Assembly: GCF_028882275.1 (NCBI RefSeq)
Contig: NZ_JARBUT010000002.1
Span: forward strand, 62,001-126,000
Origin: Nocardiopsis sp. N85
Lineage (GTDB): Bacteria > Actinomycetota > Actinomycetes > Streptosporangiales > Streptosporangiaceae
Length of the DNA: 64,000 nucleotides
Reading direction: 5' to 3'
The position numbers and the translations under genes are program-made. The stretch's first letter is position 1, and each line of letters begins with the position of its first letter. Shown piece by piece: positions 1 through 11,982 of this stretch. The notes beneath the pieces were generated by a model that did not search any database, was not told the DNA's origin, and saw nothing but the letters and a program-made list of their open reading frames with translations.

Positions 1-1837
1 CCAGCGCGATCCAGTCGGTGCCGAGGCGGTCCCACAGTCCGGCCTCGGTGACGGCGGCGCGCAGCCGGTCGATCACCTCGGCCTGGAGCACCGGGTCGTT
101 GAAGAACGGCCGGCCGGTGCGCGTGTACACGGTGCCGAACTCCCCGGGCACGAACCGGCGTTCGGCGGCCTCGGCGTCGCGGCACAGCACGGCGACGGCG
201 CGCGAGCCCATGTGCTTCTCCTCGCAGACGACCTGCCCGATGCCGGCGCCCCGGTACCAGGCGAACGCCTCGGTGGGGTGCTCCAGGTACCCGGCCTCGG
301 CGCTGGTGGGCGCCGGGGCCATGGTCGGCGGCAGGTACAGCAGCCATCGGGGGTCGACCGCGAACCGGCTCATCACCTCCAGGGCGCCCAGGGTGCTCGC
401 CCCGTTGGTCCGCACGGCCCCGTGCTCCGTCTCCACGAACTGTCCGGAGCCGTGGTCGCCGAAGCCGACGTCGGTGATGTCCACGACCGCGTCGGAGCGT
501 TCCGTCGGACCGTCGGCGGTCTCGCCTCCCAGCGGTCGGGAGGGCTCGTACCAGGTCTCGCGGGCGGCGACGTCGACGATCTCGCGTTCGGGGTAGCGCA
601 GCGCGGTGAGCCGTCCGCCGAACACGCAACCGGTGTCCAGGCACAGGGTGTTGTTGACCCACTCGGCCTTGAGCACGGGGGTGTGTCCGTACACGACGGC
701 GGCCTTGCCCCGGTAGTCGCGGGCCCAGGGCAGGCGCACCGGCAGCCCGTACTCGTCGGTCTCCCCGGTGGTGTCCCCGTACAGCGCGAAGGAGCGCACC
801 CGCCCGGAGGCCCGGCCGTGGTAGGCCTCCTTGAGTCCGGCGTGGGCGACCACGAGTCGCCCCTCGTCGAGGATGAGGTGGCTGACCAGGCCGTCGCAGA
901 AGTCGAGGACCTCCTTGCGGAACCCCTCGCTCTCGCGGCCCAGCTGTTCCAGGGACTCGGCGAGCCCGTGGGTGGTCTGGACCTTGGCCCCCTTGAGCGC
1001 CCGGATCAGCTTGTTCTCGTGGTTGCCGGGCACGCACAGGGCGTCGCCGTCGCGGACCATGCCCATGGCGAGGCGCAGTACGCCGGGGGTGTCGGGGCCC
1101 CGGTCCACGAGGTCGCCGACGAACACCGTCGTGCGTCCCTCGGGGTGGTGGGCGCCGACGGCCCTGCCCCGGTCGTCGCGGGCGATCGCGTAACCCAGGG
1201 TGGTGAGCAGCTCCTCCAGTTCCTCCCGGCAGCCGTGGATGTCGCCGATGACGTCGAAGGGGCCGGTGAGTTCGCGCCTGTCGGGCCAGGCGCGCTCGCG
1301 TTCGATGGCGACCCGCTCGATCTCCTCCACGCCGTCGAGGACGTGGATCTTGCGGAACCCCTCCTTGCGCAGGTACTTGAGGCTCTGGCGCAGGTCGCGG
1401 CGCTGCCGTCGGATCACGTGGTCGCCGAAGTCCCGGTCGGGGCGGACCCGGTTGCGCTCCCGGGCCAACGCCTCGGGGACGTCGAGGACGATCGCGGTGG
1501 ACAGCACGTCGTTGGCCTTGGCGATGGCCAGGAGTTCGGCGCGGGCCCTGGGCTGCACGTTGGTGGCGTCCACCACGGTGAGCAGGCCGCGGCGCAGCCG
1601 GATGTCCACCACGGTGTGCAGCAGGGAGAAGGCGTCCGCGCTGGCGCTCTGGTCGTTCTCGTCGTCGCTGACCACCCCTCGACAGAAGTCGGAGGAGATG
1701 ACCTCGGTGGACCGGAAGTGCCGGGCCGCGAACGTGGACTTGCCGGAACCGGACACGCCGACCAGCACGACGAGTCCCATGGCGGGCACGCCGAGGACGC
1801 GCGGTGCGGCGTCCGGAGCGGTCTCATCGGTGCTCAT
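1..1837 (-). CDS. pnkp: Polynucleotide kinase-phosphatase Pnkp, 3'-truncated by window edge
   Basis: End-healing and sealing enzyme of bacterial RNA repair: 5'-OH kinase, 2',3'-phosphatase and ligase-like adenylyltransferase modules. About 612 codons are present; the family usually has about 850, so the C-terminal part of the ligase module lies outside the window. The kinase P-loop GVSGSGKST is at residues 27-35. The phosphatase module follows with GDIHG near residue 200, then GDLVDRG, GNHE and YGHTP metal-binding motifs. The ligase-type lysine motif EKHMGSR is near residue 537. The start is ATG at 1837, whose ATGA overlaps the hen1 stop, so the genes are probably translationally coupled; the Met at residue 20 just before the P-loop is an alternative. 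Family certain, start likely. Confidence 0.95.
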   Translation of the reverse strand, partial: MSTDETAPDAAPRVLGVPAMGLVVLVGVSGSGKSTFAARHFRSTEVISSDFCRGVVSDDENDQSASADAFSLLHTVVDIRLRRGLLTVVDATNVQPRARAELLAIAKANDVLSTAIVLDVPEALARERNRVRPDRDFGDHVIRRQRRDLRQSLKYLRKEGFRKIHVLDGVEEIERVAIERERAWPDRRELTGPFDVIGDIHGCREELEELLTTLGYAIARDDRGRAVGAHHPEGRTTVFVGDLVDRGPDTPGVLRLAMGMVRDGDALCVPGNHENKLIRALKGAKVQTTHGLAESLEQLGRESEGFRKEVLDFCDGLVSHLILDEGRLVVAHAGLKEAYHGRASGRVRSFALYGDTTGETDEYGLPVRLPWARDYRGKAAVVYGHTPVLKAEWVNNTLCLDTGCVFGGRLTALRYPEREIVDVAARETWYEPSRPLGGETADGPTERSDAVVDITDVGFGDHGSGQFVETEHGAVRTNGASTLGALEVMSRFAVDPRWLLYLPPTMAPAPTSAEAGYLEHPTEAFAWYRGAGIGQVVCEEKHMGSRAVAVLCRDAEAAERRFVPGEFGTVYTRTGRPFFNDPVLQAEVIDRLRAAVTEAGLWDRLGTDWIAL

Positions 1838-3378
1838 CGTGTGAACACTCCCATCTGGGTCGGGGAACCGGTGGTCGGGTCCTCCGGACCCACCGGCAGG
1901 TAGCGGACGGTGTAGCCGTTGCGTTCGGCGACGCCGTCCGCCCACAGGGTGAACTCCGCGCGATTCCACTCGAAGCGGTGGTCCGCGTGGCGGAAGGCGC
2001 CGTCGGCCAGGCCCTCGTAGTGGACGTTGTACTCGGCGTTGGGCGTGGTGACCACGACGATCCGGGGCCGCGCGGAGGCGAACACGGTCTCCTCCAGGGC
2101 GGGCAGCCGCGCCGGGTCGAGGTGCTCGACGACCTCCATCAGCACGATGGCGTCGTGTCCGGCGAACCGGGCGTCCCGGTACACGGCCGAACCGACGAGC
2201 AGGTCGGGGCGGGGCGGCCGGGTGCCCTTCTCCCTCGTCCCCTCGGCGTCGGCGAACAGGTTCCGGTGCCGCCTGTTGCCGGGGGCGCAGCCCCGGCAGG
2301 TCCGGCGGTGCGCCATCTGGAGGGAGACGGTGTCGACGTCCACGCCGGTGACGCGCTCCAGGGTGGGGTCGGCGACCAGTTTCGTCAGCAGCGCCCCGGA
2401 GCCGCAGCCCAGGTCGAGCACGCTGGAGACGCCCTCCGCGCGCAGGACCGCCAGGACCGCCCCGGCGCGCTGTTCGGCCAGGGACGGCGGGCGCTCCTCC
2501 CCCTCGGGGGTGACCACGGGGGCCTCCTCCAGGCTCGGGTCGTCGACGCCCTCGTCCTCGGCGACGTCGTCGGCCTCGGCCAACCGCGCCAGGGCGGTGC
2601 GCACGTAGGTGGCGCGCCGATTGAGGTAGCGGCGGGTGATCCAGGCGCGTTCGGGGTGACGGGCCAGCCATCGGGACCCGGCCTCCGTGTCGGGATCCTC
2701 CTCGGTGGTCTCGGCCTCGGGGTCGGTGACGCGCAGGCCGCCGGCGCGCAGGAGCTTGTCGATCTCGGTGCGGTCCACCCAGTAGTGCTTGTTGCCGTCC
2801 ATCGCGGGCAGCAGGACGTACAGGTGGCTCAGCGCCTCCGACAGCACCTGCTCACCGGTGAGGGTGAGCGACAGGTAGTGGGAGTCGCCCCAGTCGGGCA
2901 GACCGGGGTCGAGCGGCACGGGTTCGGCGGTCACCCGCCAGCCGAGCGGTTCGAACAGGGCGCGGGCCTTGTCGGCGCCGGCCCGGCACGGGACGGCGGG
3001 CAGGCGCAGTTCGAGGGGCAGGGGCGTGGTGACCAGTTCCGGCCGTGCCCGGCAGTCGCCCTTGAGCGCGGAACGGAACACCCGGCCCAGCGCGACCGTG
3101 AACAGCGAGGAGGTGGCGAAGGGGCGGTCGTTGACGTACTGGGCCAGGGCGAAGTCGGGTGTGCTGACGGAGGTGCGCGTCCGGAGCAGCGCCTGGGGGT
3201 CGACCTCCAGGAGCAGGGCCGCCGTGCACCGTTCCTCGGTCGCCTCGGGGTAGAACACGTGGGCGGTCCCGAAGGACTGCTCGAAGCTCTGCGCCCTGTC
3301 GGGGTGTTTCTGCAACAGGAAGCCGAGGTCGGTGGCCGGGGCCTCCGGGGTCGCGGTGGTGGTGATCGTCAGTAGCAC
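1834..3378 (-). CDS. hen1: 3'-terminal RNA ribose 2'-O-methyltransferase Hen1
   Basis: Methylates the 2'-OH of the 3'-terminal nucleotide at the break during RNA repair, so that the junction resists being cut again; partner of Pnkp. 514 residues. The N-terminal half (about 1-240) is the Hen1 domain that activates the Pnkp ligase. The C-terminal half is a methyltransferase with the SAM motif LDLGCGSG near residue 321, the metal-binding pattern EVVEH near 415 and DHRFEW near 466, all hallmarks of Hen1. I chose GTG at 3378: a CACAAT hexamer ends six bases upstream, consistent with a leaderless mRNA, and no convincing Shine-Dalgarno is seen. Longer forms would run into the tandem repeat upstream. 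First gene of the hen1-pnkp operon. Confidence 0.93.
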   Translation of the reverse strand: MLLTITTTATPEAPATDLGFLLQKHPDRAQSFEQSFGTAHVFYPEATEERCTAALLLEVDPQALLRTRTSVSTPDFALAQYVNDRPFATSSLFTVALGRVFRSALKGDCRARPELVTTPLPLELRLPAVPCRAGADKARALFEPLGWRVTAEPVPLDPGLPDWGDSHYLSLTLTGEQVLSEALSHLYVLLPAMDGNKHYWVDRTEIDKLLRAGGLRVTDPEAETTEEDPDTEAGSRWLARHPERAWITRRYLNRRATYVRTALARLAEADDVAEDEGVDDPSLEEAPVVTPEGEERPPSLAEQRAGAVLAVLRAEGVSSVLDLGCGSGALLTKLVADPTLERVTGVDVDTVSLQMAHRRTCRGCAPGNRRHRNLFADAEGTREKGTRPPRPDLLVGSAVYRDARFAGHDAIVLMEVVEHLDPARLPALEETVFASARPRIVVVTTPNAEYNVHYEGLADGAFRHADHRFEWNRAEFTLWADGVAERNGYTVRYLPVGPEDPTTGSPTQMGVFTR

Positions 3379-3507
3379 CCGTGCATTGTGACCTGTGGGC
3401 CGGCACGTTGGCCAAGTCTTTTCCTCACGTTTCGCCCCCCGGGCCGCTCCGATGAGTGCTTCTCCTCGTGGCGGCGACGAAACCCGCGCCACCGCGGCGG
3501 CTCCACA

Positions 3508-3543
3508 CCACGCGGGGGATGTGCGCCACGCGGGGGACGTGCG
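3508..3543. repeat. 18-bp tandem direct repeat upstream of hen1
   Basis: Two adjacent 18-bp copies, CCACGCGGGGGATGTGCG and the same with C for T at one position, sit about 130 bp upstream of the hen1 start in the 214-bp gap before the next gene. Nothing else in the gap explains them. They could be a tandem operator for the RNA-repair operon or a small minisatellite. Confidence 0.75.
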
Positions 3544-3592
3544 GGTCATGTCCCCACCGTCCCCCGTGGTGACCGTCCGCGCCCGAGTACCC

Positions 3593-4706: not shown

Positions 4707-6899
4707 TCAGGCGACGGGGGTCGGCGTGCCGTCGGCCGTCGCGGGAGCGGTGTTCCGGTTCCGTCGGTGCGCGATCACCTGGAGGGCGATGAGGGCGGTC
4801 CCCAGGACGGATCCGGCCAGGACGAACCAGGAGGAGTCCACGCCGAGCGACAGCGCCGCCCCGAACAGGGCGCTCCACTCCGGAGCGATCATGATCAGCA
4901 GGGAGGCGACGACGAACGCGATCCGTTCGCCGACGGCGACCGGCCTCAGGAAGTGGCCCTCCAGGGCGATGGCCGCCGTGGCCAGGGCCACGCATCCGCT
5001 GACGACGGCGACGGCCAGGTCGGTGATCGGGCCGTCGACCTCCATGAGCGCCGAGTAGGCCATGAGCATCGGGATGAGGTAGAGCCCCTTGGCGAACTTC
5101 CACGCCGACAGTCCCGAGCGCATCGGGGAGGCGTTGGCCACGCCGGCGGCGGCGAACGCGGCGAAGGCCACCGGCGGTGTCACGTTGGAGTCCTGGCTGT
5201 ACCAGTAGACGATCATGTGCGCGACGATCACCGCCAGCCCCAACTCCTGGAGGGCGGGGACCGCCAGCACGGCCAGGACCACGTAGGCGGCGGTCACCGG
5301 CAGGCCGATGCCCATGATGAGCGAGGCGATCGCCACCATGAGCAGGGTGAGCAGGAGGCTTCCGGCGAACACGGTGACCAGGACGTCGGACAGCACCAGT
5401 CCCAGGCCGGTCAGCCCGACCATGCCGACGATGATGCCCGCCACCGCGCAGGCCACCGACACCGGCATGGTGTTGCGGGCGGCCAGGACGAAGACCTCCA
5501 GGATGTCCCGGGGCCCCAGCCGGCTGGCGGCCCGCAGCATGGCCACGAGGAACAGGGCGCCGCAGGCCCACAGGCCGGCCCGGGTCGGGGGCACGTAGTT
5601 GAGCAGCAGGACGATGAGCAGGAGCAGGGGCGCGAGGAAGTGCCAGCCCGCCGCCATGACCGCGCGCATGCGGGGCAGGTCGGAGTCGCGGGCCACCCCG
5701 ATGCCGTACTTGCGGGCGAGGATGTCCACGAACAGGAACATCACCCCGAAGTACATGAGCGCGGGGATGATGGCGACCTTGACGATGTCGGCGTAGGGGA
5801 TGCCGGTGCGCTCCGCCATGATGAACGCGCCCGCGCCCATGATGGGCGGGAGGATCTGGCCGCCGGTGGAGGCCGCGGCCTCCACCCCCGCCGCGTCGTG
5901 CCTGCGGTACCCGACCTTCTTCATCAGGGGGATGGTGAACGGTCCGGTACTGACGACGTTGGCGATGGCGCTGCCGGACACCGAGCCCATGAGCGCGCTG
6001 CTGAGCACCGCGCCCTTGGCGGGGCCGCCGACCATGCGCCCGGTGAGCACGTAGGCCAGCCCGACGAAGAAGCTGCCACCGCCGGTCTTGGACAGCAGGG
6101 CGCCGAACAGGATGAACACGAACACGAAGGTGACGACCACGCCCAGGGTGAGGCCGTAGACGCCGTCACCGAGGTAGGAGTGCGTGGCGATGCGCTGGAT
6201 GGTGGCGCCGGAGTGCCCGAACTGGCCGGGGACGAGCGGACCGACCCACGCGTAGAAGATGAACGCGGCGACCATCACCACCATGACCATGCCGACCGTG
6301 CGCCGGGTGGCCTCCAGCAGGACGACGATGGCGATCAGGCCCATGATCCAGTCGAGGTCGGTGTAGGCGCCCGCTCTGGAGGCCAGCTCCTGCTGGTACA
6401 CGATCGGGTAGAGGCTGGTCACGAAGGCCGCGCCGATGAGCACCGTGTCGAAGACCAGGGCGGGGATCGACCGTCCCGCGCGACCGGGCAGGGACGGTTT
6501 GACCAGCAGCACCAGGACCAGCACGAACAGCAGGTGGATGAGGCGCTGTTGACGGGCGTCGAAGCCGCCCAGCAGGGCGATGTGGATCTGGAAGAGGCCC
6601 AGGCCCAGGGCCAGGACCAGCACCAGGACGCCGACGGTGGTGGCGAGCGGCCCCTCGCCCCAGCGTTCGACGGCCATCCGCTTCCAGACGGGTCCGGCCC
6701 CGTCGTCCTCCCCCTCGACGTCGGGGAGCACGTCGGCGGACGTGCCGGTGCGCCGGCGTCCGAACCCGGGTCCGCGGTCCGCGGTGTCCCCGTCGGTCGC
6801 GGTGGACGTCGCCGTCCCCTCCGTGGCGGGGACGGTCGCGGTCTCCTCCCCCTCGTGTCCGGGGGTGTCCCCCCGTGCCTGTGACGGTGTCTCGGCCAT
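4707..6899 (-). CDS. TRAP transporter fused permease subunit (TAXI type)
   Basis: Integral membrane subunit of a TAXI-class tripartite (TRAP) carrier, which imports organic acids with an ion gradient; the small 4-helix and large 12-helix subunits are fused in one 730-residue polypeptide. The first about 80 residues are a charged Thr/Asp/Glu-rich cytoplasmic extension, followed by many hydrophobic helices. Typical signatures are GGQILPPIMGAGAFIMAE, the segment after GRMVGGPAKGAVLSSALMGS, and GIGLPVTAAYVVLAVLAVP. The start is ATG at 6899 (MAETPSQARG). It is the last gene of the minus-strand set binding protein, DUF1850, permease; the 95-bp gap before it is the only sizeable break. The substrate cannot be read from sequence. 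Confidence 0.93.
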   Translation of the reverse strand: MAETPSQARGDTPGHEGEETATVPATEGTATSTATDGDTADRGPGFGRRRTGTSADVLPDVEGEDDGAGPVWKRMAVERWGEGPLATTVGVLVLVLALGLGLFQIHIALLGGFDARQQRLIHLLFVLVLVLLVKPSLPGRAGRSIPALVFDTVLIGAAFVTSLYPIVYQQELASRAGAYTDLDWIMGLIAIVVLLEATRRTVGMVMVVMVAAFIFYAWVGPLVPGQFGHSGATIQRIATHSYLGDGVYGLTLGVVVTFVFVFILFGALLSKTGGGSFFVGLAYVLTGRMVGGPAKGAVLSSALMGSVSGSAIANVVSTGPFTIPLMKKVGYRRHDAAGVEAAASTGGQILPPIMGAGAFIMAERTGIPYADIVKVAIIPALMYFGVMFLFVDILARKYGIGVARDSDLPRMRAVMAAGWHFLAPLLLLIVLLLNYVPPTRAGLWACGALFLVAMLRAASRLGPRDILEVFVLAARNTMPVSVACAVAGIIVGMVGLTGLGLVLSDVLVTVFAGSLLLTLLMVAIASLIMGIGLPVTAAYVVLAVLAVPALQELGLAVIVAHMIVYWYSQDSNVTPPVAFAAFAAAGVANASPMRSGLSAWKFAKGLYLIPMLMAYSALMEVDGPITDLAVAVVSGCVALATAAIALEGHFLRPVAVGERIAFVVASLLIMIAPEWSALFGAALSLGVDSSWFVLAGSVLGTALIALQVIAHRRNRNTAPATADGTPTPVA

Positions 6900-6994
6900 G
6901 GTCTTCCTCGGGTCGTCCGTAGGGGGCCGTCGGGGGCGCGGTCGTATGCGGGATCCCGGCGGCGGAGGCGGTGGTCGGGCGGCGCCCCGGAGCG

Positions 6995-7585
6995 TCAGCA
7001 GTCCGGTGCGGGCACGCGGGTGAGCGGCAGGTGGAGAGTGGAGAGGCGGACCGGCTCCACGGTCACCCGGTGGGCGGCGAGGCACGGGGAGAGCCGTACC
7101 TCGGCATCGGGTGTGCGGATCCGGTGGTCGATGGCGGGGGCGCCGACCCGCAGGGCCAGGACGGGCCCGATGTCGCGGCCCATGTCCTCGACGACCCACC
7201 ACGGCCCTTCGGCCCGGCCGTTCCCCTCACCGGGGATCTGCCCCATACCGGCGCCGAACTGGCGGATCCGGGTGGCGTCGACGACGAGGTGTCCGTCGCG
7301 GACCACGAGGTCCTCCTCGATCGGCAGGCGGTCGATGGAGTGCACGTAGGAGACGGTGAACACCTCTCCCTCCGCCAGGGGGAGGTGTCCGATCACGGCG
7401 CCCTCGTCGGCGACGCGCAGGGCCGGGTGGACCGGCCACACCAGTGCGCCGAGGAGCGCCAGGGCGACGGTGAGCAGTGCGGCCGTGCGCACGTCGCGGT
7501 CGACGGGGGCCCCGGGACCGGGGCCCCCGGGACGCGGCCGCCCGGCGGTGCCGGGGGCCGCGTCGCGGTCGGGTGTCGTCTTCAC
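6995..7585 (-). CDS. DUF1850 domain protein of TAXI-TRAP locus
   Basis: 196 residues with a GTG start at 7585, eleven bases after the binding-protein stop. An N-terminal Pro/Gly-rich cytoplasmic stretch precedes one membrane segment (about residues 34-53), leaving an extracytoplasmic domain. The domain carries the DUF1850 pattern: FTVSYVHSIDRLPIEEDLVV, then a region ending FGAGMGQIPGEG. DUF1850 proteins are typically encoded beside TAXI-TRAP permeases, and this position between the binding protein and the permease fits. The biochemical role of the family is unknown; an accessory role in assembly or substrate handoff is inference. Confidence 0.85.
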   Translation of the reverse strand: MKTTPDRDAAPGTAGRPRPGGPGPGAPVDRDVRTAALLTVALALLGALVWPVHPALRVADEGAVIGHLPLAEGEVFTVSYVHSIDRLPIEEDLVVRDGHLVVDATRIRQFGAGMGQIPGEGNGRAEGPWWVVEDMGRDIGPVLALRVGAPAIDHRIRTPDAEVRLSPCLAAHRVTVEPVRLSTLHLPLTRVPAPDC

Positions 7586-7596
7586 GGGGTCCTACG

Positions 7597-8625
7597 TCAG
7601 GGGCGGAGTTCCTCGGGGATCTCGATGCCCTGCTCCTCGTAGTAGCGCAGGGCGCCGGGGTGCACCGGGACCGGGCTGTTGAGGATGGTCTCGGCGACCA
7701 GGTACTCCTCGGCCGGGGCGTACACGTCGAGCACCGCGTCGATGTTCTCGAACATGGCCTTGGTGATCTCGTAGGCCTGGTCCTCGTTGAAGCCGCCGCT
7801 GACCACGAGGGCGTTCCACACGGCGATGGTGGGGACGTCCTCGTCGACACCCGGGTAGGTCCCCGCGGCGATGGTGTGCTCGGTGTAGCCGCCGTAGCCG
7901 TTGACGACCGCGGAGCGCTCGTCGTCGCAGAGCGGGATGAGGTGGAGGTCGTCGGTGGTGCCCAGCTCGGTGATGCCTGCGTGCCCTTCGCCGACCACCC
8001 AGGAGCCGGCGTCGAGCTGGCCGTTCTGGAGGGCGCTGGCGGTCTCCGCGTAGCCGAGCTGGTCGATCTCGATCTGGTCGCCGGCGATCTCCAGGGAGGC
8101 GAAGACCTGGTTGGTGGTGGCCTCGTTGCCGCTGCCGACGTCACCGACGGAGTAGCGGCTCTCCACCACGTCGGAGAAGCACTCGAACCCCTTGGACTCG
8201 GCGATGGGGTCGAGGGTGACCGCGTGGAAGACGTTGGGGTAGAGCACGGCCAGGGAGTAGGTCTCGACGGGGGCGCCCTCGAAGTCGGCGGTGCCGGTGG
8301 CGGCCTGGTCGGCGGCGTCGCCCTGCACGATGGCCATGTGCGCGGTGCCGGACCCGAGGAGGCGGATGTTCTCCACGGAGGCGCCGGTGGCCTCGACGGA
8401 GCCCGACTGTCCTTCGATGTTGTCGCCGATGATGCCGCTCAGCGCGCCGCCGATCGGGTAGTAGACGCCCGCCGTGCCGCCGGTGGCGATGCTCAGCTGG
8501 TTCTGCACGGGCCCGGAGCCGATCTCCACCTCCTCGTCCCCGCCGGATTCCGCGGGCTGGGTGCAGGCGGTCAACAGCAGGACACCGGTGGACAGGGCGG
8601 CCAGGGAGGGGAGGGCGCGTCGCAT
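7597..8625 (-). CDS. TAXI family TRAP transporter solute-binding lipoprotein
   Basis: Extracytoplasmic substrate receptor of the transporter; 342 residues. A lipoprotein signal with lipobox LLTAC (Cys about residue 21) is followed by an acidic linker and the TAXI signature IATGGTAGVYYPIGGALSGI, then ASVENIRLLGSGTAHMAIVQ, both standard for the family. The start is ATG at 8625. Downstream come the DUF1850 and permease genes in apparent operon order. It is divergent from a second TAXI-type gene across a 216-bp regulatory gap, so both could be controlled by the adjacent two-component system. The ligand is unknown; TAXI proteins characterised elsewhere bind organic acids such as dicarboxylates or glutamate. 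Confidence 0.93.
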   Translation of the reverse strand: MRRALPSLAALSTGVLLLTACTQPAESGGDEEVEIGSGPVQNQLSIATGGTAGVYYPIGGALSGIIGDNIEGQSGSVEATGASVENIRLLGSGTAHMAIVQGDAADQAATGTADFEGAPVETYSLAVLYPNVFHAVTLDPIAESKGFECFSDVVESRYSVGDVGSGNEATTNQVFASLEIAGDQIEIDQLGYAETASALQNGQLDAGSWVVGEGHAGITELGTTDDLHLIPLCDDERSAVVNGYGGYTEHTIAAGTYPGVDEDVPTIAVWNALVVSGGFNEDQAYEITKAMFENIDAVLDVYAPAEEYLVAETILNSPVPVHPGALRYYEEQGIEIPEELRP

Positions 8626-8798
8626 GGTCAGGGGTCCTCTCGGGTGTTCCTCGGGGGCTGTCACGGAGCGGTGGGCGGCGGTCCCGTGCGCCCCGGGATC
8701 GGGGGGACCGCACCGGAGAGCGGGTGTGTCGCACGCCACTCCGTTGCCGAGAAACGTAACCGGCACCTCCCGGAAACCCCCCGTCCGTCCTCACCTTT

Positions 8799-8841
8799 TG
8801 AGGTTCCTCTGAGGTTTCCCCCGACTTGCTATCGTTCGAGC
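8799..8841 (+). promoter_or_regulatory. Candidate OmpR-type operator and leaderless promoter for the second TAXI gene
   Basis: Direct repeats TGAGGTT at 8799-8805 and 8810-8816 have an 11-bp period, one helical turn, as expected for tandem binding of an OmpR/PhoB-type response regulator. The hexamer TATCGT (8830-8835) ends six bases before the ATG at 8842, so transcription would start at the initiation codon and the repeats would cover about -43 to -26, an activator position. A further CCTCA half-site at 8789-8793 forms an inverted repeat with the first copy. Confidence 0.55.
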
Positions 8842-9864
8842 ATGTCGCGGTCCTCTCTGAGCCTCGTGTGGCCCCTCACCGCGGCCCTCCTCGTGCTGAC
8901 GGTGTCCACGCCGCTGCTCACCCGGGCCGAGCCACGGGAGGCGCCCCCGGTACACCTCTCCCTGGGCACCGGCGGGACCGGCGGCGTGTACCACGAGTAC
9001 GGCGCGGCGCTGGCGCGGATCGTCTCGTCCTCGCACGGCGACGTGCGGATCACCGCGCTCACCACCGCGGCCAGCGTGGAGAACAACCGGCTGGTGGCCG
9101 AGGGCTCCCTGGACGCGGCCTTCACCCTGGCGGACGTGTCGGCGCTGGCCGTGGCGGGCGACCCGCCGTTCGACGAGCCCCTGCCGATCAACGCGATCGC
9201 CCGGTTGTACGACAACCACACCCACGTGGTGGTGCGGGCCGACTCCCCGTACCGGTCCCTGTCCGACCTGGCCGGGAGCACGGTGTCGGTCGGGGCGAAG
9301 GGTTCGGGTACCGAGATGATGGCCGAACGGCTGCTGGACCTGGTGGGGCTGGAGGAGGACGGCGGCCCCGATGCGGGGGTGCACCGGTTGCGGCTGTCCA
9401 TCGGCGGATCGGCCTCGGCCCTGGAGCGGGGCGCCATCGACGCCTTCTTCTGGTCGGGCGGGCTTCCCACCCAGGCGGTGGCCGACCTCGCCGAGCGCTT
9501 CCCGATCCGGTTGCTGGACCTGTCCGAGCACGTCAACGCCCTGAGCGAGGAGCACGGGGCCTACTTCTCCGAGCTGCCGGTACCGGCGAGCACCTACCCG
9601 GGCGTACCGGCGGTGCGCACCATCGGTGTGCCGAGTCTGCTGGTGGTGGGCGCGGGCATGCCCCGCCCCACCGCCGAGGAGCTGACCCGGCTGCTCTTCG
9701 ACTCCCGGGCCGAACTCGCCGAGATCCACCCGGTGGCGCTCCAGCTGCACCCCCGGTCGGCGATCGCCACCTTGCCGGTGCCCCTCCACCCCGGGGCCGC
9801 CGGTTACTACCAGGAGGTCAAATACGCGCACGATCGGGTGGCGGAATCGGCCGCGGTTCCGTGA
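8842..9864 (+). CDS. Second TAXI-type solute-binding protein, no lipobox
   Basis: 340 residues. The N-terminal hydrophobic helix (about residues 8-27) has no lipobox Cys, unlike the paralogue across the divergent promoter, so the protein is secreted or stays membrane-anchored. The TAXI core is clear: LGTGGTGGVYHEYGAALARI and ASVENNRLVAEGSLDAAFTL, with WSGGLPTQAVADL later. No second permease accompanies it. The 3' end overlaps the convergent histidine-kinase gene by 47 bp. The context (orphan binding protein, two-component system, shared promoter) suggests it may present ligand to the sensor kinase rather than, or as well as, feeding the carrier; this is inference. The start is ATG at 8842, apparently leaderless. 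Confidence 0.9.
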   Translation: MSRSSLSLVWPLTAALLVLTVSTPLLTRAEPREAPPVHLSLGTGGTGGVYHEYGAALARIVSSSHGDVRITALTTAASVENNRLVAEGSLDAAFTLADVSALAVAGDPPFDEPLPINAIARLYDNHTHVVVRADSPYRSLSDLAGSTVSVGAKGSGTEMMAERLLDLVGLEEDGGPDAGVHRLRLSIGGSASALERGAIDAFFWSGGLPTQAVADLAERFPIRLLDLSEHVNALSEEHGAYFSELPVPASTYPGVPAVRTIGVPSLLVVGAGMPRPTAEELTRLLFDSRAELAEIHPVALQLHPRSAIATLPVPLHPGAAGYYQEVKYAHDRVAESAAVP

Positions 9865-11254
9865 CCAGGCGGATCCGCGCGTCGATCCCCTGGGGGCGCG
9901 CGGGACGCAGGGTGAGCGAGGCCCCCTGGAGTTCGAGCAGGGTGACGACGATGGACAGGCCCAGGCCCGAACCGCCCACGCCGCCGTCGCGCCAGAACGG
10001 CCGGGTGGCCTGTGCCAGCTGCCCTTCCGGCAGGCCGGGACCGTCGTCGACGACGTGCACGTCCACGTGACCCTCCCCGTCCGGCCCGGGTGGGGACCCG
10101 TGGACGCGCACGGTGATCCGCACGCCCTCCCCCCCGAACTTCAGGGCGTTGTCGATGAGCGCGTCCAGGGTCTGGTCGAGCGTGCCCTCCACGCACCGGA
10201 CCCGTATCCCGTCCCCGCCCTCCTGGAGCAGGGTCGCCCCGGCCCGTTCGGCGATGGGCTCCCATGAGAGCAGCCGGTCCCGGACGACCTCACCGACGTC
10301 CTCCCACACCGTCGAGTGCTCGGTGTCCTCGGTGCGCGCCAGGGTGAGCAGGCTGTCGCAGATGCGGGTGAGCCGGTCCACCTCGTCCAGGGCCAGCCTG
10401 TGTCCGGTGCGGCCCTCGGGGGTGAGGTGCCTCGACAGGGCGTCCACCCGCAGCCGCAGGGCCGCCAACGGGTTGCGCACCTGGTGCCCGGCGTAGGCGA
10501 CGAAGACGCGCTGGCTCTCCAGCATCGCGGTGATGGTGTCGGCCATCCTGTTGAACGACTCCCCCAGGCGTCGCAGTTCGACCGGCCCCGCGGCGGTGCG
10601 CACCCGGATGTCCAGACTGCCTCCCGCGACCGCGCGGGTGGCCTCGTCGAGGTCGTCGATGGGCCGCAGGATCCACCGGGTGAGCGGCCCGGCCGCGGCG
10701 ATGCCCGCGATCATGAGCGCGGTGACCGCCGCCGCGGCCAGGGCCCACTGGACGAGGGTGGCCCGGCGCAGCGACGCGGTGGGCGAGGCCGTGACGGCCG
10801 CGCCCACGACCTCACCGGACCGGCCGACGGGTTCGGCGACGATGAGGGGGCCGTCCTGCCAGGGGTAGACCACCCGGTCGGCGCCCATCCGGTTGCCGGC
10901 CAGCGCGTTGCGGACCGCCTCGGGCATCGGGTCGTCGGACCGCCGCCCGGGGTCGATGTCCGTGATGTCGAGGCCGGGCCGGGACGCGGCCACCACCCCG
11001 CCCTCGCGGTCCACGACGATGGCGGAGATGCCGTAGAGGCGGTCGTAGGCGGTCAGTTCGGCCGTGAGGATGCCCCCGGAGCCGGTGAGGACCGCGGGTT
11101 CGGCGATACCCGCGAACCGGGCGGTGTCGTTGATCCGGTCCAGGAGCATGTCGGAGGTGCCCCGGGCGGCGATGCTGCCGCACAGGGGGAGGGAGAGCCC
11201 GAGACAGGCGGCGACCAGCAGGGTCACGTACACGGTGATGACACGGCGATGCAT
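9818..11254 (-). CDS. Sensor histidine kinase with HAMP domain
   Basis: 478 residues. Membrane helix about 7-30, extracytoplasmic sensor domain about 31-165, second helix about 168-190, HAMP about 190-245, dimerisation/phosphoacceptor segment with VAYAGHQVRNPLAALRL (His about 256), and an ATPase domain with IDNALKFG (N box), VVDDGPGLPEG (G1) and GGSGLGLSIV (G2). All catalytic boxes are intact. It follows the response-regulator gene by 14 bp on the same strand and overlaps the convergent TAXI gene by 47 bp at its 3' end. The extracytoplasmic domain has the size of a single PAS/Cache-like fold; its signal is unknown, but a TAXI ligand is an attractive candidate. Confidence 0.93.
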   Translation of the reverse strand: MHRRVITVYVTLLVAACLGLSLPLCGSIAARGTSDMLLDRINDTARFAGIAEPAVLTGSGGILTAELTAYDRLYGISAIVVDREGGVVAASRPGLDITDIDPGRRSDDPMPEAVRNALAGNRMGADRVVYPWQDGPLIVAEPVGRSGEVVGAAVTASPTASLRRATLVQWALAAAAVTALMIAGIAAAGPLTRWILRPIDDLDEATRAVAGGSLDIRVRTAAGPVELRRLGESFNRMADTITAMLESQRVFVAYAGHQVRNPLAALRLRVDALSRHLTPEGRTGHRLALDEVDRLTRICDSLLTLARTEDTEHSTVWEDVGEVVRDRLLSWEPIAERAGATLLQEGGDGIRVRCVEGTLDQTLDALIDNALKFGGEGVRITVRVHGSPPGPDGEGHVDVHVVDDGPGLPEGQLAQATRPFWRDGGVGGSGLGLSIVVTLLELQGASLTLRPARPQGIDARIRLVTEPRPIPPPDRARI

Positions 11255-11268
11255 CGGCCCGCCCCGGA

Positions 11269-11982
11269 TCAGTGCCGTGACGCCGCCGGAACGGCGTCCG
11301 CCGACGCGTCCGCCGGTCCGTGGGCGACGGTGAGCCGGTACCCGACCCCGCGCACCGTCTCGATGAGGCCGGGAACGTCGAGCTTGGCGCGCAGGGTGCC
11401 CACGTGCACCTCCAGGGTGCGCAGCGTCCCCGACCAGGTGGTCCCCCAGACGCGCAGCAGCAGGTGCTCGCGGGACAGGACGGTGCCGGCCTCACGCGCC
11501 AGGGCCAGCAGCAGGTCGAACTCCTTGCGGGTGACCTCCACCCGGGCGCCGTCGCGTTCGACCGTGCGCCCGGCCGGGTCGATGCGCAGGGGTCCCGCGA
11601 TCAGGGGTTCGTCGGAGGGGCGGCGGGTGCGGCGCAGCACCGCCTCCATGCGGGCGCACAGTTCCTCGATGGCCAGGGGTTTGACCACGTAGTCGTCGGC
11701 GCCGGAGCGCAGTCCGCGCACCCGTTCGCGCTGTTGGCCGCGCGCGGTCACCATGATGATCGCCGTGTCGCCGACGTCGTGGCGTTCCCGGATCATCCGG
11801 CACAGTTCCACGCCGTCCATGTCGGGCAGTCCGAGGTCGAGCAGCACGATGTCGGCCGGGTCGGCGGCCAGCGCCCGCTGCGCGGTGCGCACCTGGGTGA
11901 CGGTGTAACCGTGGGTTTCCAACGCCCCGGCGAGGGCGTCGGCGAGGCGAACGTCGTCCTCGACGAGCAGCACCTTGATCAT
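11269..11982 (-). CDS. OmpR-family response regulator
   Basis: 237 residues. The receiver domain has acidic VEDDVRLADAL at the N-terminus, phospho-acceptor Asp in VLLDLGLPDMDG (about residue 53) and conserved Lys in DDYVVKPLAIEEL (about 102). The C-terminal winged helix includes VEVTRKEFDLLLALAREAG and TLEVHVGTLRAKL. The start is ATG at 11982 with a GAGGAC Shine-Dalgarno. First gene of a two-gene operon with the kinase. Proteins of this family bind direct repeats spaced one helical turn apart, which matches the TGAGGTT pair at 8799-8816 near the transporter genes. Confidence 0.95.
   Translation of the reverse strand: MIKVLLVEDDVRLADALAGALETHGYTVTQVRTAQRALAADPADIVLLDLGLPDMDGVELCRMIRERHDVGDTAIIMVTARGQQRERVRGLRSGADDYVVKPLAIEELCARMEAVLRRTRRPSDEPLIAGPLRIDPAGRTVERDGARVEVTRKEFDLLLALAREAGTVLSREHLLLRVWGTTWSGTLRTLEVHVGTLRAKLDVPGLIETVRGVGYRLTVAHGPADASADAVPAASRH

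Follow-up and report, generated by a model that had tools for sequence, protein, structure and literature searches.

We analysed a 64,000-nt stretch of the Nocardiopsis sp. N85 genome (contig NZ_JARBUT010000002.1, positions 62,001-126,000; hereafter the window) and studied a locus at 4707-11982, where a TAXI-TRAP transport operon stands beside a second TAXI gene and a two-component system (Table 1). The operon encodes a lipoprotein receptor (TAXI1), a DUF1850 protein and a fused permease; the second TAXI protein, TAXI2, is encoded next to a sensor histidine kinase and an OmpR-family response regulator. We consider it probable that TAXI2, kinase and regulator form a three-component sensory cassette, in which TAXI2 would present a ligand to the kinase and the regulator would switch on both TAXI2 and the transport operon.

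The original prediction, made from the DNA alone, had described a complete TAXI-TRAP set and, divergent from it, a TAXI protein with neither a lipobox nor a permease of its own. Gene order, strands and profile matches bear out both descriptions. TAXI2 matches TIGR02122 with 255.8 bits (cut-off 84.35) over residues 15-327, which amounts to a whole-domain match, and PF16868 with 210.8 bits. Its AlphaFold model (mean predicted local distance difference test score, pLDDT, 91.4) has the two-domain TAXI fold, and the top Foldseek matches in the PDB (9ibp, 1us4, 8u79 and 9ibo) are TAXI proteins. The N-terminus carries a hydrophobic segment of about 20 residues, without a lipobox and without any Cys in the N-terminal region. 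No permease lies on the strand of TAXI2; the sole nearby one sits in the divergent operon, which has its own TAXI1. Between the divergent TAXI1 and TAXI2 genes are 216 bp of intergenic DNA (8626-8841). The TAXI2 gene had also been said to run into the kinase gene. Indeed, their tails overlap by 47 bp (9818-9864), but the two genes are convergent and therefore share no run-on transcript.

This layout is not due to chance and is kept across the genus. Of 15 further genus loci that were fetched (L034-L048), 14 hold the whole set in the order of the window, and the fifteenth (L035) holds all but the transport operon. In three of them (L037, L040 and L041) the kinase lies 1.3-3.7 kb from TAXI2, and the L040 kinase is split into several frames. 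The N85 genome (6.5 Mb, 54 contigs) contains three TAXI genes. The third, on contig C19, likewise converges on a kinase of this type, and its divergent neighbour is a DASS carrier (PF00939) in place of a TRAP permease. The TAXI-kinase-regulator block is thus present twice in the genome, beside two unrelated transporters. In this second cassette (C19:39580-41859; locus L033 8482-11700) the TAXI protein is a lipoprotein with a twin-arginine-like start, and the divergent carrier is of the DASS/SLC13 kind.

The kinase has an extracytoplasmic sensor domain of about 140 residues of the type linked to TAXI, and the motif PW is invariant in the sensor alignment (A2). The kinase model reached a pLDDT of 89.5. 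Foldseek and VIA-align were tried on this model to assign a sensor fold and were abandoned, the match lists being filled by kinase cores. A search with the sensor sequence gave no significant relative in the PDB and three matches at chance level. Among 40 sensors, dCache_1 was matched in 12 (best E 3e-4) and dCache_3 in 3 (best E 2e-4). These Cache matches are marginal, so that a Cache-like sensor is a mere suggestion.

Two kinds of TAXI gene in actinomycete loci

We collected 120 actinomycete loci around TAXI genes. They were chosen among the TAXI matches listed, best scores first, and the sample therefore leans to higher-scoring TAXI proteins. The loci hold 147 TAXI genes: 69 of TRAP-operon type (on the same strand as a TRAP permease and within 1.9 kb of it), 73 with a sensor kinase within 4.5 kb and five with neither. 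A kinase lies within 400 bp of 58 TAXI genes, 57 with the kinase only and one (L049) also with a permease; the other 15 kinases follow within 4.5 kb. In L049 the genes for regulator, kinase, TAXI2, TAXI1 and permease are co-directional. None of the 69 TRAP-operon TAXI genes has a kinase within 400 bp. The 58 direct neighbours comprise 44 convergent and 14 co-directional pairs, which means that the neighbourhood is conserved while the arrangement varies. By a hand count, the pairing spans 21 genera among the fetched loci.

The partner is one constant type of kinase. The sensor profile was matched in all 73 kinase-linked cases, in 72 of them in one frame with E 2e-46 or better and in L040 across broken frames. 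In a sensor profile search of the 120 loci, the domain was absent from every locus having solely permease-type TAXI. Three of the five TAXI genes with neither partner fall in the kinase clade described below; the sensor lies elsewhere on their contig, at a distance of 5.8 kb (L129), about 7 kb (G297) and about 11 kb (G215). The pattern that the original prediction had named as contrary to it, frequent TAXI genes of this kind without a kinase, was therefore not found: of 76 such genes in the fetched loci, 58 lie within 400 bp of the kinase, another 15 within 4.5 kb of it, and the last three have a sensor roughly 6-12 kb away on their contig.

The carriers beside the cassette vary. Next to the 73 kinase-linked TAXI genes we found a TRAP permease in 24 cases (gaps of 1.3-4.4 kb), a GluB-like ABC transporter, scored by gluB, in 23, a DASS carrier in three, an SDF carrier in two and none of the four types in 21. 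Fusion of TAXI to kinase was considered as Rosetta-stone evidence and dropped; no TAXI-kinase or TAXI-permease fusion frame occurs in the 120 loci, where frames of about 1000 residues hold one family each.

In a tree of 146 TAXI proteins (LG+G4), from which the L048 TAXI2, interrupted by an unread stretch, was left out, the label kinase-linked or permease-linked needs a single change over 141 labelled rows. Shuffled labels (n = 200) needed at least 38 changes (mean 47). The dividing branch has a Shimodaira-Hasegawa-like approximate likelihood ratio test (SH-aLRT) value of 0 in this tree. In a mixture-model tree of 56 divergent rows the same split received an ultrafast bootstrap value of 100 and an SH-aLRT of 98 and was present in 200 of 200 bootstrap trees. 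The trees are unrooted and give no order of origin for the two kinds.

The sensor domain and TAXI occur together

A sensor profile (A2) made from 40 sensor domains of TAXI-linked kinases, including that of the window, was run on 393 genomes of the class that had been searched for TAXI. At E ≤ 1e-25 the sensor was found in 123 genomes, 122 of which have TAXI at 1e-15; 27 genomes have TAXI alone and 243 neither. In the sole exception (G172), whose assembly comprises about 850 contigs, a TAXI fragment covers profile positions 2-69. Counted by hand over 122 genera, all 30 sensor genera have TAXI, nine have TAXI alone and 83 have neither. Since the profile was built from TAXI-linked kinases, this near-perfect co-occurrence describes that sensor type alone.

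Weaker relatives of the sensor (1e-8 to 1e-25) occur in 19 further genomes of the class, two of them with TAXI. Among phylum genomes outside the class, 15 have such a relative at 1e-12 or better, and TAXI was found in none of these. An extension of the sensor-TAXI link to the distant relatives was thus rejected: all 18 weak-match genomes checked lack TAXI, and the eight loci inspected show other neighbour genes. The claim that the sensor goes with TAXI is therefore limited to strong matches. In three loci (L270, L272 and L276) the distant sensor kinases adjoin apparently redox-related genes (ApbE-like and ferric-reductase-like by eye), without TAXI.

Convergent neighbours share no transcript, and solute-binding protein (SBP) genes beside kinases are reported not always to be functionally linked to them (PMC11113362). 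A generic kinase pair could hence stand next to an accidental TAXI duplicate. We regard such incidental proximity as very improbable, given that the pairing is kept in both orientations, in the two paralogous cassettes of the N85 genome and across the 21 genera; the co-occurrence counts already disfavour it.

Persistence of the cassette without a TRAP permease

All 43 Streptomyces genomes sampled contain TAXI together with the sensor, which matches A2 at 1.4e-51 or better in each of them (5e-60 in the window kinase). The DctM permease (PF06808) gave no match at 1e-10 in 42 of the 43, and GltS none at 1e-10 in all 43. PF06808 was likewise without a match at 1e-10 in G122, G124, G096 and G107. 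Kinase-linked TAXI is thus not confined to genomes having a TRAP permease. We also inspected 80 named loci, the best 80 of more (79 from Streptomyces, one from an 'Actinobacteria bacterium'), in which gluA was scored. The kinase is convergent with TAXI in 77 of them, the 12 widest gaps being 0.76-6.4 kb, and TAXI, kinase and gluA occur together in 70. In ten Streptomyces loci (L214, L215, L222, L224, L225, L238, L246, L249, L252 and L263) TAXI and kinase are both kept across a gap of 2.3-6.4 kb.

L035, from genome G021 of the window's genus, lacks TAXI1, the DUF1850 gene and the permease and keeps the flanking genes on both sides. Its TAXI2, kinase and regulator have 78-85% identity to those of the window with the same synteny, and the repeat described below is exact. 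G021 has one other TAXI, of the C19 type. If the operon was once present, L035 9067-10341 is a natural deletion of it.

A candidate operator between the divergent promoters

Direct repeats of 11-bp period are used by OmpR-family regulators. Such a repeat lies between the two divergent promoters of the locus. The pattern TTTGAGNNTNNNCTGAGGT is exact in the window and in 14 of the 15 further genus loci, L035 included; the L041 copy deviates at one base. With up to one mismatch, the repeat has a single match in the whole 6.5-Mb genome, that of the window, and a backward-pattern control had none. In L037 a third 11-bp unit is visible upstream of TAXI2 (about 8066-8100). Between the carrier and the TAXI gene of the C19 cassette lies a related box, which likewise has a single match in the genome.

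A matrix made from eight sites was applied to loci outside it. Boxes were recognised between the carrier or TAXI1 and TAXI in L130, L148 and L150 (the L130 box had been seen by eye beforehand and is not in the matrix) and before the regulator in L116, L121 and L125-L127. In L052, L119 and L139 a repeat of the same period, CTCAGATTCCCCTCAGAT, lies by the regulator on the gluA side with a weak score of 8.9. The matrix search found no convincing box in L103, L104-L108, L114, L115, L117, L118, L123, L132, L142, L178 and several Streptomyces loci. In L095 the top score (12.2) fell upstream of the regulator, against 11.5 at the expected place, and in L145 the expected place scored 4.0.

Candidate pocket, anchor and docking face

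In VcGluP the pocket includes Y45, S75 and Q93, and the Gln is reported to matter most for glutamate (PMC11574862). Y45 and S75 are retained in TAXI2 as Y50 and S78; Q93 is replaced by L96 in TAXI2 and is a Gln in TAXI1. Gln occupies this site in 30 of 69 permease-linked and eight of 72 kinase-linked proteins. Being a minority state in both kinds, it is no clade marker, and TAXI1 and TAXI2 may differ in their ligand. TRAP, GluB-like ABC, DASS and SDF carriers handle amino acids such as glutamate, or di- and tricarboxylates. Because these are the carrier families found beside the cassette, the TAXI2 ligand would be glutamate-like or a dicarboxylate.

All 69 TRAP-operon TAXI proteins have a lipobox. 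Among the kinase-linked rows it is absent in 37 of 72 and present in 35, so that its absence, which the original prediction had pointed out, does not define a sensory TAXI. The central idea of that prediction, a sensory TAXI acting with the kinase, has good support from genome comparison: a clade of its own, one constant kinase type and persistence without a TRAP permease. Lipobox calls were made by pattern, with L172 (LPGC) and L040 assigned by hand, and the lipobox state changes three times on the TAXI tree. The uncharged N-terminal run is somewhat more hydrophobic and has a median length of 21 residues in proteins without a lipobox compared to 18-19 in lipoproteins, a modest difference. In kinase-linked TAXI of Streptomyces this run ends in WWLLP(L/F)G with no plausible signal-peptidase site by eye, and a membrane anchor is therefore likely in these proteins. 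Judged from its N-terminus, TAXI2 of the window may likewise be held by a membrane-anchoring helix instead of being a free protein, although it may also be cleaved after TRA.

Kinase-linked TAXI proteins (n = 72) carry Arg at position 223 in 71 cases, at 289 in 53, at 305 in 63 and at 324 in 70. TAXI2 of the window has Arg at 305 and Gln at 324. Permease-linked proteins (n = 69) are mixed or acidic at these positions, with an acidic residue at 305 in 34 and at 324 in 56. The four positions are a candidate docking face for the kinase.

These data bear on the idea that TAXI2 is an alternative binding protein bringing a second substrate to the neighbouring TRAP, DASS or SDF carrier, as proposed for TAXI-GltS. 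A TAXI protein working with a non-TRAP carrier is described in Bordetella pertussis (PMC12344293), and TAXI2 shares a divergent promoter region with the permease operon. In two loci (L145 7575-9483 and L150 7587-9500, from G126 and G201) a single DUF1850-permease pair is preceded by two tandem TAXI lipoproteins, and a kinase-linked TAXI is present as the third. We nevertheless hold a carrier role for TAXI2 to be improbable. Its clade is separate from the TAXI proteins of permease operons, it is kept in L035 where the operon is missing, TAXI is present in Streptomyces genomes without DctM or GltS, and 21 of 73 kinase-linked genes have none of the four transporter types nearby. The contrast between Arg and acidic residues at 305 and 324 also speaks against it, the Gln 324 of the window protein notwithstanding.

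Proposed mechanism and relation to known systems

In the sensory cassette that we propose, TAXI2 would be held at the membrane by its N-terminal helix (by a lipid in relatives) and would capture an extracellular ligand, either glutamate-like or a dicarboxylate. Loaded TAXI2 would dock on the roughly 140-residue sensor domain, and the kinase would phosphorylate the OmpR-type regulator. The regulator would then bind the 11-bp-period repeat between the divergent promoters and act positively, switching on TAXI2 itself and the TAXI1-DUF1850-permease operon.

The closest known pair is GluR-GluK of Streptomyces coelicolor (SCO5778/79), whose OmpR regulator and classical kinase are encoded divergently from gluABCD, the glutamate ABC operon (PMC10345050). 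The window pair shares with it the OmpR regulator and a kinase with two transmembrane helices and this sensor domain. GluR-GluK adjoins a glutamate ABC operon, whereas the window system adjoins a TRAP operon and the C19 cassette a DASS carrier. The TAXI-linked pair of Streptomyces is GluR-GluK by its place divergent from gluABCD; none of the 80 loci is titled S. coelicolor. A GluR-binding motif has been reported upstream of gluA, the side on which the weak repeat of L052, L119 and L139 lies. Excerpts of the accounts of GluR-GluK (PMC9739842, PMC10345050) name no binding-protein partner.

SBP-dependent three-component systems such as CuaDSR, AioXSR and BctC-BctDE share the linkage of SBP, kinase and regulator genes. 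TAXI proteins of the TAXI2 kind lie within 4.5 kb of the kinase in 73 of 76 cases, and TAXI2, being linked to kinase and regulator, belongs with these systems by gene linkage. In CuaDSR of Ruminiclostridium cellulolyticum, a second SBP beside the two-component system senses while CuaA serves the transporter, the same split as proposed here for TAXI2 and TAXI1 (PMC10384115). CuaDSR differs in its cellobiose-binding SBP and ABC transporter, and experiments are reported to show that CuaD binds CuaS (PMC10384115). In the AioX-AioS-AioR and ArrX systems the regulatory proteins are described as having evolved together and apart from the enzymes regulated, which resembles the TAXI2 cassette; their ligands are oxyanions and their SBP belongs to another subfamily (PMC5908839). 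BctC-BctE of Bordetella pertussis, with a Bug/TctC SBP, is a case where the SBP of a secondary transporter acts on the kinase controlling the transporter operon. BctC serves both transport and signalling (PMC5812351), whereas in the window the two jobs seem to be split between TAXI1 and TAXI2. TAXI-GltS (BP0403) likewise places a TAXI outside TRAP operons, but its partner is a transporter (PMC12344293), and the text on it in PMC12344293 makes no mention of two-component systems, histidine kinases or sensors.

Several observations weigh against a sensory role for TAXI2, the strongest being the glutamate binding reported for GluK and a weak mirror-tree result. GluK is reported to bind glutamate directly, and not glutamine, in biolayer interferometry (PMC9739842), and the report that SBP genes beside kinases are not always functionally linked (PMC11113362) applies here as well. 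TAXI2 has Leu at the key Gln site of VcGluP. All 18 genomes checked with weak sensor matches lack TAXI, from which it follows that the sensor fold as such needs no TAXI. In many loci the matrix search recognised no box. The profiles of the census were built in this analysis, the sensor profile and most counts come from related genomes, and the TAXI counts are drawn from the best-scoring matches listed. Finally, a mirror-tree comparison of TAXI with the sensor gave a weak correlation (rho 0.31; partial 0.10 given the kinase core) and no signal for distant pairs (-0.03). The mirror-tree was discarded as support for coupling, as it showed nothing special to the TAXI-sensor pair.

Some of these points would fit a kinase that senses its ligand directly. 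TAXI2 would then simply belong to its regulon, scavenging or buffering the ligand for example. The direct binding reported for GluK, the weak mirror-tree signal and the position of the repeat at the TAXI2 promoter, which makes TAXI2 a likely target of the regulator, all agree with it. Scavenging would be hard to understand, however, where there is no importer, as in the 42 of 43 Streptomyces genomes without DctM, none of the 43 having GltS. Moreover, no case of the strong sensor type lacking TAXI was found, and in the fetched loci this kind of TAXI always has a kinase on the contig. In L052, L119 and L139 the weak box stands on the gluA side and not before TAXI, yet TAXI is retained. We therefore think a mere regulon member unlikely. 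The CuaDSR two-component system can perceive its signal unaided and becomes more sensitive through the extra SBP (PMC10384115), so direct ligand binding by the kinase and co-sensing by an SBP can both hold. By analogy, a graded role is likely for TAXI2, with a kinase that perceives the signal alone and a TAXI protein that adds sensitivity.

On the scale of the class Actinomycetes we lean towards a broader version of the sensory reading. One TAXI clade may have left, or never served, transport, and its members may present the ligand as an obligate subunit of a single kinase family that includes GluK. The cassette would have been coupled in turn to TRAP, GluB-like ABC, DASS and SDF carriers, and in several lines a transmembrane helix would have replaced the lipid anchor. 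Annotations list TAXI proteins as transporter subunits, and the TAXI-TRAP systems have been dubbed 'the neglected group' (PMC5812351). If the sensory role is true, about half of the fetched actinomycete TAXI genes are sensors under a wrong name, and GluR-GluK, for which a signal has been proposed as for few other Streptomyces two-component systems (PMC9739842), gains an unnoticed part. The exchange of carriers around a constant sensor would then show cleanly how nutrient sensing can evolve in modules. In the literature searched on TAXI and SCO5780/SCO5779, to which this negative is limited, no title on a sensory TAXI was found.

Further features of the locus

The coordinates of genes and candidate regulatory elements are given in Table 1. 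The likely start of the permease is the ATG at 6899 rather than a GTG far upstream in the long frame. Two places from the TRAP operon lies a gene (1834-3549) which may encode a Hen1-like RNA methyltransferase.

Table 1. Genes and candidate regulatory elements of the TAXI2 locus (window coordinates)
Feature	Position	Strand	Evidence
Fused DctQM-type TRAP permease	4707..6899	-	TIGR02123 603 bits, E 6e-181; PF06808 E 9e-86
DUF1850 protein of the TAXI-TRAP operon	6995..7585	-	PF08905 E 1e-18
TAXI1, lipoprotein solute-binding protein of the TRAP operon	7597..8625	-	TIGR02122 259 bits; lipobox LTAC by eye
Hexamer TACGTT, conserved, candidate -10 of the TAXI1 operon	8753..8758	-	AACSTA in 15/16 aligned upstream regions; consensus only
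Direct repeat TTTGAGGTT-CC-TCTGAGGTT, 11-bp period, candidate response-regulator box between the divergent promoters	8797..8817	+	pattern TTTGAGNNTNNNCTGAGGT exact
TATCGT, candidate -10 of the probably leaderless TAXI2 promoter	8830..8835	+	TATYGT before ATG in 12/16 aligned upstream regions; consensus only
TAXI2, kinase-linked TAXI protein	8842..9864	+	TIGR02122 256 bits; PF16868 211 bits
Sensor histidine kinase, two transmembrane helices	9818..11254	-	Pfam HAMP, HisKA, HATPase_c
OmpR-family response regulator	11269..11982	-	PF00072 and PF00486

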